From positions 1 through 35,138 of the forward strand of contig JACZJB010000169.1 in the NCBI GenBank assembly GCA_014860805.1: a DNA stretch of 35,138 nt, read 5' to 3'. Below are positions 26,658 through 35,049 of the stretch, piece by piece. Position numbers and translations under genes: made by a program. The notes beneath the pieces are model-generated. The model searched no databases. It saw nothing but the letters and a program-made list of their open reading frames with translations, and was not told where the DNA came from. Position 1 is the stretch's first letter; each line of letters opens with the position of its first letter. Origin of the DNA: Anaerolineales bacterium (GTDB taxonomy: Bacteria > Chloroflexota > Anaerolineae > Anaerolineales > Villigracilaceae).

Positions 26658-26748
26658 CAGAGCGGAATGGCGAGTGCTCTCCGAGGAACGCAGTCGAAGG
26701 ACAAACGCTCCCATACCCGCGTCTCGGCTTCACTCGTTCCGCTCGGCG
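26658..26748. repeat. Imperfect palindromic repeat between amidohydrolase and ABC genes
   Basis: GAGCGGAA at the left and TTCCGCTC at the right form the outer ends, with CGAG/CTCG and CCGAG/CTCGG pairs inside. It contains CGCAGTCGAAG (26689-26699), an 11-mer also present as its complement inside alaS (33673-33683). I read it as a decayed REP-like element; no gene is present here. Confidence 0.5.
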
Positions 26749-32143: not shown

Positions 32144-34908
32144 TACTTCAACTTCTCTCCAACTGCTCTTGCGACCTTTCCCAACGCTTCCTGGACATTG
32201 CCGTCTGGCAAACTGCCTTGCGCAAGGTTGGGACGCCCGCCGCCTTTGCCGCCAATACCTGTGATGAGATCGCCTGCCTTGAGTCCGCGTTTAACGAGGT
32301 CTTCGGTCACCACCGCGATGACAGTTGATCCTGTCACGAGGAGGGCCGTTCCCGCTTTGGGATATTTCTCGCGGAACTTGTCGGCTAACATTCGCAGAGT
32401 ATCCACGTTCGAGTCAGGGATTTCAACCGCAAGAACATGCGCATCTTTGACGGTTTGAACGTTGGCAAGTTGCAGGTTGAAGGTTGTAAGCGCAGACTGT
32501 GCGCGGAGGTTGGCGAGTTCTTTCTTGAGATCAGAAACTTCATCCTGCAAAGCTTCCACCTTGGCAGGGACTTCTTCCACAGAGGATTTCAACTCACTCG
32601 CAGCCTGCTTCAACGTCTTGAAGCGCTTGTTGATGAGTTCGTACGCGCCGCGGCCCGTCACCGCTTCGATGCGGCGAATGCCTGCCGCTGCCGAACCTTC
32701 ACTGACGATGAGAAACGCGCCGATATCGGAGGTGCGGTCGATGTGTGTGCCGCCGCAGAGTTCGTAGGAATATTTGTCATCCTCGTCTTCGAGAATGGAA
32801 ACGGTTCGCACCGTCTCGCCGTATTTCTCGCCAAACAAGGCCATTGCGCCTTCTTTTTTAGCTTCGTCCAATGACTTGGTCACTTTGACCACGGGCATAT
32901 CCGCCGCAATCGCTTCGTTGACCATTTTCTCGACTCGCTCGATCTGCTCAGGGGTCATGCCGTCGGGTTGGGTGAAGTCGAAGCGCAGGTATTTGGGAGA
33001 GACAAGCGAGCCTGCCTGACGGGCATGCTCGCCGAGGACTTCGTGCAGGGCTTTGTGCAGGAGGTGCGTGGCGGTGTGATTGCGCATGATGTTGTGACGG
33101 CGGACCATGTCCACTTCAGCAACAGCTTTGTCACCTACTTTGGGTTGACCAGAAATGACCTGCCCTATGTGTGTGATCGTCCCAGCCGCGGCACGGCGGA
33201 CGGATGTGACTTCGATCTCCCACGCTTCGGCTCCGCTCAGCGCGAGTGAGCGGATGTAGCCCTCGTCATTGACCTGACCACCAGACTCGATATAGAAGCC
33301 TGTCTTGGGCAGGATGACTTCGACAACATCATCAAGGGAGGCAGAGGAAACGGATTCGCCGTTGACAATCAAAGCCAGCACTTCGCCTTCCACTTTAGGG
33401 CTGTTGTATGGGTCGTATTCCACTCCGTCTTTGCCGAGTTTCTTTTTGGCTTGCAGGTCTTTCAGGATATTCGCAAAGAACTCCGAATCTTCGCCGCCGA
33501 GTTTGCCCATGGCTTTGCCGCCGCCAGAGGCTTTGGCGTGGACTTCCTTTGCATGAGTGAAACCCGCTTCATCAATATCGAGACCCTGCTCACGGGCAAT
33601 GTCGCGGCTGATCTCAAAGGGCAAGCCGTAGGTGGCGTACAGGTCGAAAGCAATGTGTCCATCCAACACGCTCTTCGACTGCGCCCCTTCGGGGCTCCGC
33701 TCAGAGCGAAGCCCGTCGAGGTGATTCTGCAAGTGAGCTGTACCCGCTTCAACGGTACGAGCGAAGCGGACTTCTTCCCGAGTCAGGTTATCTAAAATGG
33801 TCGCCTTGTTCTTTTCGAGTTCGGGATAAAAATCGCCATAGTAATCTACAACGGACTCGGCAACTTTTGCGAGGAAGGGTTCGTTCAAACCGATCTTCGT
33901 GCCAAAGCGCGCGGCGCGGCGGATGATCATGCGGGTGACGTAGTTGCGCCCCGCGTTGCCAGGCACGACGCCGTCGGCGATGAGGAAAGCCGCGGAACGG
34001 ACATGGTCGCAAATGACGCGGTACGGCGTGAAATCGGCCAGCATTTCTTTTTCGCTGTGACCTGTGAGCGAGCGCAACACTTCAAGAGAGCCAGCAAAGA
34101 GGTCGGTCTTGTAATTGGAGTCGACGCCTTGCAGAACGGAGACGATGCGCTCGAAGCCCATGCCCGTATCCACATGTTTGGCGGGCAGCGGTTCAAGGCG
34201 GCCGTCTTCAAAGAGATTGTATTGAATGAAAACGTTGTTCCACAGTTCGAGGAAGCGCGTGCATTCGCCGTTCACACCGCAGACGTGATCCGTGCCGCGC
34301 AGGTTATCGCGCTCTTCGCCGAGGTCAATGTGGATTTCAGAGCAGGGACCGCAGGGACCGAACTCCGCCATTTGCCAGAAGTTTTCCTTGCGCCCGAAGA
34401 AGAGGACATGCGAAGGGTCGAAGCCAGGCTGTTCCTTCCAGATATCGGCGGCTTCATCATCGCGCGGAATATCGCCCTTACCCGCAGGGTGCGCTACGCT
34501 GTCATCTTCAAAGCAGGTGGCATAGAGCTTGTCTTTGGGCAAGCCCCATACTTCGGTCAGCAATTGCCACGACCAGGCAATGGCTTCCTTCTTATAGTAG
34601 TCGCCAAAGGACCAGTTGCCGAGCATTTCAAAGAAAGTGTGATGCGTGTCGTCGCGGCCCACGTCTTCGAGGTCATTGTGCTTGCCTGCCACACGCATAC
34701 ACTTCTGCGAGTCGACGGCACGGGTGTAGGGCTTCTTGTCGGTGCCGATGAAGACGTCTTTGAACTGCACCATGCCCGAGTTGGTGAAGAGAAGCGTAGC
34801 ATCCCCGCCAGGCACAAGTGACATGGACGGCACGGCGGTATGTCCGTGCTCGACGAAGAAATCAATGAAGTCCTGGCGGATCTGGTTGCCTGTTAGTTTT
34901 TTGCTCAT
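32143..34908 (-). CDS. alaS: Alanyl-tRNA synthetase
   Basis: 921 residues from ATG 34908, which has GGAG nine bases before it; an in-frame ATG five codons upstream is less well supported. The class II aminoacylation core (MVQFKDVFIG, RVAGKHNDLEDVGRD, FFEMLGNWSFGDY) is followed by the editing domain with zinc ligands NHTATHLLH and CGGTHIDRT, then a coiled-coil (about 740-775) and the DHHA1-type C-terminal domain (GIGGKGGGRPNLAQGS). Residues about 396-413 (LDGLRSERSPEGAQSKSV) look like an in-frame insertion derived from a palindromic repeat; most AlaS proteins have a shorter loop there. Confidence 0.97.
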   Translation of the reverse strand: MSKKLTGNQIRQDFIDFFVEHGHTAVPSMSLVPGGDATLLFTNSGMVQFKDVFIGTDKKPYTRAVDSQKCMRVAGKHNDLEDVGRDDTHHTFFEMLGNWSFGDYYKKEAIAWSWQLLTEVWGLPKDKLYATCFEDDSVAHPAGKGDIPRDDEAADIWKEQPGFDPSHVLFFGRKENFWQMAEFGPCGPCSEIHIDLGEERDNLRGTDHVCGVNGECTRFLELWNNVFIQYNLFEDGRLEPLPAKHVDTGMGFERIVSVLQGVDSNYKTDLFAGSLEVLRSLTGHSEKEMLADFTPYRVICDHVRSAAFLIADGVVPGNAGRNYVTRMIIRRAARFGTKIGLNEPFLAKVAESVVDYYGDFYPELEKNKATILDNLTREEVRFARTVEAGTAHLQNHLDGLRSERSPEGAQSKSVLDGHIAFDLYATYGLPFEISRDIAREQGLDIDEAGFTHAKEVHAKASGGGKAMGKLGGEDSEFFANILKDLQAKKKLGKDGVEYDPYNSPKVEGEVLALIVNGESVSSASLDDVVEVILPKTGFYIESGGQVNDEGYIRSLALSGAEAWEIEVTSVRRAAAGTITHIGQVISGQPKVGDKAVAEVDMVRRHNIMRNHTATHLLHKALHEVLGEHARQAGSLVSPKYLRFDFTQPDGMTPEQIERVEKMVNEAIAADMPVVKVTKSLDEAKKEGAMALFGEKYGETVRTVSILEDEDDKYSYELCGGTHIDRTSDIGAFLIVSEGSAAAGIRRIEAVTGRGAYELINKRFKTLKQAASELKSSVEEVPAKVEALQDEVSDLKKELANLRAQSALTTFNLQLANVQTVKDAHVLAVEIPDSNVDTLRMLADKFREKYPKAGTALLVTGSTVIAVVTEDLVKRGLKAGDLITGIGGKGGGRPNLAQGSLPDGNVQEALGKVARAVGEKLK
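33671..33720. repeat. Repeat-like palindromic stretch inside alaS
   Basis: Contains GCCCCTTCGGGGC (33683-33695), an inner palindrome, inside CTTCG/CGAAG inverted pairs, and CTTCGACTGCG (33673-33683), complementary to a copy at 26689-26699. It is a multiple of three in effect and keeps the reading frame open. Confidence 0.55.
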
Positions 34909-34949: not shown

Positions 34950-34960
34950 CCAAGTGGCAT

Positions 34961-35047
34961 GTCATTGCGAGGGCGTTCTTGCTCTTCGCCCGAAGCAATC
35001 TCCATACCAATTATGGGATTGCTTCGCCCTATCGGGCTCGCAATGAC
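34961..35047. repeat. 87-bp palindromic repeat element (REP/MITE-like)
   Basis: Ends are GTCATTGCGAG and CTCGCAATGAC, perfect 11-bp inverted repeats. Inside are GAAGCAATC and GATTGCTTC, a second inverted pair around a central ACCAATTAT spacer. The whole folds as a long nested hairpin. A partial relative lies at 6537-6573. No coding capacity. Confidence 0.8.
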
Positions 35048-35049
35048 AC

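Follow-up and report, generated by a model that had tools for sequence, protein, structure and literature searches.

Probable in-frame insertion of a REP-like palindrome into a variable loop of alanyl-tRNA synthetase in an Anaerolineales bacterium

Results and Discussion

The alaS palindrome and its reading frame

We analyzed a window of 35,138 nucleotides, the whole stretch from position 1 to 35,138 of contig JACZJB010000169.1 (assembly GCA_014860805.1), from an Anaerolineales bacterium of the family Villigracilaceae. The palindromic element considered here is referred to as E1, and the features of the window that concern it are the following.

26660-26702, plus strand: intergenic relative of E1, GAGCGGAATGGCG...AACGCAGTCGAAGGAC, the partner with a common 11-mer; by eye it resembles copies on contigs C126 and C140
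32143-34908, minus strand: alaS, alanyl-tRNA synthetase, 921 amino acids from ATG, stop included, identified by translation and Pfam
33223-33249, minus strand: second AlaS insert, SLALSGAEA, in another variable loop, called site C; at the DNA level similar, by eye, to one half of E1
33667-33705, minus strand: AlaS residues 403-415, SERSPEGAQSKSV, against six residues (SQNKTS) in the sister locus L015, a net +7
33669-33708, minus strand: E1 element, long form, sense with alaS; one of 19 copies in the genome, arm of 6
34480-34500, minus strand: third AlaS insert, SVAHPAG, 7 residues (site E148); not palindromic

The AlaS frame, whose start codon was picked by alignment, has Pfam matches to tRNA-synt_2c, tRNA_SAD and DHHA1. 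The original prediction, made from the letters of the window, described palindromic DNA inside this gene, and that observation is confirmed. The inner palindrome GCCCCTTCGGGGC lies at 33683-33695, the frame stays open across it, encoding LDGLRSERSPEGAQSKSVLDGH in AlaS, and the 11-mer CGCAGTCGAAG held in common with the intergenic repeat (at 26689-26699) is found in reverse complement at 33673-33683. The intergenic partner itself looks like a member of the E1 family. An outer stem is present as predicted, although the pairing proposed for it, CTTCG/CGAAG, is bettered by the six pairs that CGCTCT at 33669-33674 makes with AGAGCG at 33703-33708. On the coding strand, from 33708 down to 33669, the element reads CGCTCTGAGCGGAGCCCCGAAGGGGCGCAGTCGAAGAGCG, with arms CGCTCT/AGAGCG and an inner stem GCCCC/GGGGC.

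Taken alone, the folding strength of the alaS palindrome is ordinary. The RNA fold of 81 nucleotides of the alaS segment has a z-score of -0.99, and the single-stranded DNA fold of the 40-nucleotide hairpin, in which outer and inner stems both form, has a z-score of -1.66; the DNA folds of five other E1 copies range from -1.42 to +0.92. No Rfam family reaches its gathering score within the window.

The AlaS loop across the genus

Among the 57 genomes of the genus that were searched, 55 gave an AlaS match, and 45 AlaS rows were aligned, including that of the window. Six of these (L047, L051 and L054-L057) have partial or split frames; they count in the loop table but not in the AlaS tree. The loop between RTVEAGT and AFDLY (site A) has 22 residues in 34 of the 45 rows and is longer in the remaining 11, with 24 (one row), 28 (five), 29 (three), 36 (one) or 43 (one) residues. 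The AlaS of the window has 29. The loop is thus longer than usual, as had been predicted, and the extra residues do not fall within ordinary variation among close relatives; the gain is seven residues net, not the roughly ten first estimated.

The closest relatives make the change visible. Of the six rows in the fork to which the AlaS of the window belongs, L014, L015, L016 and L022 carry the plain 22-residue loop, and L018 has a 28-residue loop built of other repeats. At the same place, L015 reads TTCGCTC-ACAAAATAAAACCTCC and the window TTCGCTC-TGAGCGG...GAGCGTG, a stretch of 16 bases against 37. About 16 native alaS bases seem to have been replaced, so that the insertion would not be a clean one. 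Elsewhere in the genus, E1-type inserts can be recognized by eye in the loops of L025 and L027, that of L027 being degenerate; L046 and L056 carry a different palindrome (the CCCTTCGACCAGGCTCAGGGC type) together with short AT-rich repeats, and five further rows have short AT-rich repeats alone. On the AlaS tree, in which 14 of 36 inner branches are well supported, the E1 state requires two changes for 3 of 39 rows and the presence of any insert requires five; these changes may be losses as well as gains. We also aligned 24 AlaS rows from named records, drawn from 80 loci. Two of them (L114 and L125) are members of the genus; none of the remaining 22 has an insert at site A. One AlaS match, in L104 (JAKEFL010000239.1, 1357-5048), spans 3692 bases, about 900 above the usual length.

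In a low-confidence structural model of AlaS (pTM 0.43), residues 404-414 are coil, with pLDDT under 50 at 408-412. The three inserts of this protein are mostly coil in the same model, residues 142-144 of the third forming a three-residue helix.

The E1 family

The E1 hairpin has an outer stem that is variable yet complementary, a core that starts with GAGC and ends with TCGA, and often an inner stem. It measures about 24-56 bp, gives inserts from 12 nucleotides up, and is read in several frames and in both orientations. In the 4.23 Mb genome, 19 sites match the pattern GAGCGGAG-N4-33-AGTCGA, the alaS copy included, and a single one matches the reversed pattern, so the unit does have copies elsewhere in the genome. 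Outer arms of four or more pairs are found in 14 of these 19 long-form copies, and TTCG precedes the arm in 9. The short core, GAGCGNAGTCGAAG, has 8 matches in the same genome (reversed control, 0) and is present in 42 of the 57 genomes of the genus, where the control gives 2 matches over all 57. Its count is highest in the genome G051, with 81 copies, among which we counted 14 close pairs on opposite strands. Across the family, CTGAGCGNAGTCGAAG occurs in 97 of 152 genomes and 18 of 26 genera, and its reversed control has one match in all.

The outer arms covary. Among 76 short copies, which include orthologous ones and are not all independent, pairing at the third and fourth arm positions is 0.68 and 0.71, whereas shuffled sets give 0.35 and 0.42 on average and at most 0.51 and 0.61. 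Of the nine positions tested, only these two exceed 1000 shuffles; the first two are nearly constant. When the short form is translated in six frames, only the frame that reads the TGA of CTGAGC is always stopped, and a copy that lands in frame is therefore usually readable.

Plain sequence comparison is a poor guide to this family. In a blastn search of 721 kb of genus DNA the top match of the alaS insert scores 26.3 bits, which equals the control median, and relatives of the insert were not recovered; its top relative elsewhere in its own genome has E = 2.9e-4. Judged from sequence, the E1 family is visible through its bipartite core and not through overall similarity.

E1 in other conserved genes

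The homology comparison covered 4 of the 19 E1 copies, and these four lie inside conserved genes. Besides AlaS, these encode a protein that we take to be TrpE-like, an enzyme that is presumably an FAD oxidoreductase of the phytoene-desaturase type (FAD enzyme), and an AMP-ligase, whose homologue L077 matches Pfam AMP-binding. Other proteins carrying such a segment thus do exist, three being added to AlaS. At all four sites sister species have short loops, or other repeats in the same place. For each of the three additional genes we compared 30 loci, as returned by its search, and found loops that are short as well as loops that hold repeats in sense or antisense, doubled or nested.

The TrpE loop is at its shortest in 14 of 30 loci. 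By eye, E1 lies antisense in L214 (the genome of the window), L215, L228 and L241 and sense in L221, L224 and L227; L225 and L234 have an E1 variant, and L231 another palindrome. The mechanical pattern found 7 of the 30 rows, to which L227 and L241 were added by eye. With these 9 rows, E1 requires 8 changes on the TrpE tree, and it requires 6 on the AlaS tree, where 6 of 23 rows have it. A comparison of L224 with L220 reveals a near-clean insert of 12 bases.

In the FAD enzyme, E1 is recognized by eye in L244 (again the genome of the window), in L249 and in L247, where another repeat is nested in it. A different family, GGTCTCGATACGAGC...GCTCTACTCGACC, fills the loop in L248, L252, L255, L259 and L262 by eye, and four of the 6 loci (of 30) found by the mechanical pattern belong by eye to another family. 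The AMP-ligase loop, where that pattern found 7 of 30 loci, one of which (L344) is another family by eye, holds a single E1 in the genome of the window and in L328, inverted E1 doublets in L347, L349, L350 and L352, and the TGGTCGAG...CGAGACCA type in L344 and L346, all by eye. In L348 (genome G015) the same loop carries, by eye, a CGTC-like REP dimer, in frame inside a conserved enzyme. A second loop of the AMP-ligase, in L323-L352, is filled by runs such as GTCAAAGGTCAAAGGTC and CCAATTACCAATTACC, some of them with CCTGAGC...GTCGAAGG palindromes.

These comparisons bear on the idea that the alaS segment is an ordinary fast-evolving loop whose codons resemble a repeat by chance. Such a loop would agree with the variability of site A in the genus, with the unremarkable hairpin energy and with the lack of excess similarity in plain blastn. 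It would not be expected to keep one length in 34 of 45 rows, nor to contain a 28-base span, GAGCGGAG...AGTCGA, with 6-bp arms that fits a family of 19 copies where the reversed control finds one, nor to be matched in three further genes of the same genome. We regard this explanation as extremely unlikely.

A wider sample of 60 E1 copies (one per genome plus the first 30 of the 81 in G051) was compared with random positions. A stop-free frame of at least 200 codons was found for 38 of the 60, against 1921 of 2400 random positions (80%), and 26 of the 60 copies are well inside a frame of 200 codons or more. We scanned 23 of these 26 ORFs with Pfam (leaving out L062, L086 and L290), and in 11 the E1 copy falls within a domain match, which by location alone is no proof of insertion; only L077, the AMP-ligase, was compared with relatives. 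Phenylalanyl-tRNA synthetase beta and a Mur ligase are among the Pfam matches of G051 that contain E1. In a lactamase-fold gene (L060, which is one of the 11, and L062) the E1 core may be part of the native codons.

Other loops of AlaS

Palindromes are not confined to site A. At three other AlaS sites, B (TAGGGGCGGGGTCACCCCGCCCCTA), C and D, perfect stems of at least 8 pairs are present in 6 of 6, 7 of 23 and 7 of 18 filled rows, compared with 0 of 60, 0 of 230 and 0 of 180 control windows. At AlaS sites A and E148, and in TrpE and the FAD enzyme, such stems are not above control. Inserts occupy site C in 18 of the 39 tree rows and require 11 changes, or 16 if families separated by eye are counted; sites B and E148 show 6 changes each for 6 rows. 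Plain blastn matches of at least 32 bits in the 721 kb of genus DNA were obtained for 1 of 10 inserts at site A (control 3/50), 5 of 6 at B (3/30), 11 of 22 at C (7/110) and 1 of 16 at D (3/80).

Comparison with known palindromic repeats

Palindromic elements inside genes are of a kind already known from intragenic REPs and Rickettsia palindromic elements. GTAG/CGTC REPs are short palindromes, mostly intergenic, that occur as singles and dimers; some lie within genes, among them those for DNA repair and for tRNA synthetases, and the recB genes of two Xanthomonas species have different REPs at about the same site (PMC3733652). E1 is likewise short and palindromic, its many copies have a core in common, although its copy number in the genome of the window is low for a REP, and it forms inverted doublets. 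It differs from those REPs in having, by eye, no conserved GTAG or CGTC end. Since it lacks such an end by eye and no RAYT has so far been linked to it, we call E1 REP-like and do not file it as a REP.

An inverted pair upstream of alaS in the window, TGTCATTGCGAG...CTCGCAATGACA at 34960-35048, looks like a CGTC/TGTC-type REP dimer as described in PMC3733652. That paper gives REPs of this type for five phyla, Chloroflexi not among them. A table of REPs in the accessible passages of the RepRanger paper (PMC12306157) includes the Chloroflexota genome of Anaerolinea thermolimosa, and REPs as such have therefore been reported in the phylum. The same passages define REPs as seldom overlapping coding regions, and they contain neither an E1 sequence nor in-frame inserts.

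Rickettsia palindromic elements are in frame in many unrelated genes, according to PMC10969869. On that description they are like E1 in being palindromic repeats in frame inside conserved genes, and unlike it in being about 150 bp long with a conserved encoded peptide, E1 being shorter and read in several frames and both orientations.

Origin of the inserts

REPINs, or BIMEs, are inverted REP doublets mobilized by RAYT. The close opposite-strand pairs of G051 and the four doublets of the AMP-ligase loop liken E1 to them; the difference is that no RAYT has been linked to E1 so far, either among the matches listed for its own genome or at 10 loci of relatives. In that genome (96.8% complete), no small RAYT was found among the matches listed, and one Y1_Tnp match was, at the end of a 552-residue frame. 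This protein (L213:110-1765, on contig C117 of genome G000), which ends in an IS200-type Y1_Tnp domain, is possibly a domesticated HuH enzyme. By hand count among the matches listed, at least 50 of the 57 genomes of the genus have Y1_Tnp in a frame of 520-610 codons. Ten Y1_Tnp loci of relatives were inspected, and one (L187) has a hairpin nearby that we took for E1 by its arms; neither these loci nor the match in the genome of the window ties a mobilizer to E1. When TrpE and AlaS loci were compared by eye, we saw no target duplication such as a MITE would leave. A synteny comparison of the window's neighbors among relatives gave too patchy a picture to be of use.

Several lines of evidence suggest that the alaS segment is a copy of the REP-like palindrome E1, inserted in frame into a variable loop in the lineage of this genome, a reading to which we assign a probability of about 0.85. 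The interpretation first offered for the locus, a mobile palindromic repeat that entered an essential gene without breaking its frame, is supported as regards the repeat and its insertion; the word mobile leans on its lineage-specific presence. The spread of E1 may involve single-stranded hairpins or template switching, and copies would land in genes and spacers alike before being filtered. Gene-breaking copies would then be lost, and copies that keep the frame in tolerant loops would stay and drift. The under-representation of E1 in long frames is what such a filter predicts.

A palindrome could also form in place, without transposition, if the newly made strand folded back at a half-site already in the gene and, through template switching, acquired an inverted copy of the flank as an arm. 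By eye, L015, L028 and L034 have native sequence that matches TTCGCTC, the left arm, the palindrome of L025 continues by eye into native sequence, many different perfect palindromes with stems of at least 8 pairs occupy AlaS sites B, C and D, and the arms covary across E1 copies, all as this process would have it. Foldback of unrelated flanks would not, however, be expected to yield the common core GAGCGGAG...AGTCGA at 19 places in one genome or a short core common to 18 of 26 genera, and the inverted E1 doublets of the AMP-ligase resemble those of G051. As an account of the alaS segment we consider formation in place unlikely.

It is very unlikely that the palindromes are kept for a function, such as a hairpin in the alaS mRNA or a selected peptide. 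Arms that remain complementary at two variable positions and inserts that recur in the same loops could be read in this way. The loops nevertheless stay short or hold several unrelated sequences, TrpE carries E1 in both orientations, and the folding of the alaS segment is ordinary. As far as can be told from the sequences, the added residues give no sign of serving AlaS.

A broader picture may be drawn tentatively, at somewhat less than even odds. Variable loops of conserved and partly essential enzymes would act as landing pads that sample genomic palindromes, with E1 singles and doublets, the CGTC-like dimer, TGGTCGAG...CGAGACCA elements and others taking each other's place at one site. The loops would evolve by repeat capture, and in part by hairpin formation in which host flank supplies one arm.

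Conclusion

What stands out is that unrelated palindromes repeatedly fill the same loops in one genus. In a search that mostly left out subscription journals we noticed no paper describing such in-frame inserts in Anaerolineales, nor any account of a genus in which the same loops capture unrelated palindromes time and again; a literature search with E1-like sequences returned no paper. Descriptions of intragenic REPs usually deal with single genomes. The present case is one genus in which the same loops have been filled many times by several families. Across its 57 genomes, orthologous loops are short or carry repeats in sense or antisense, doubled or nested. This makes it possible to measure how often REPs insert, in which frame, and how far a site tolerates them, and the loops provide a natural record of the short segments that essential enzymes tolerate.
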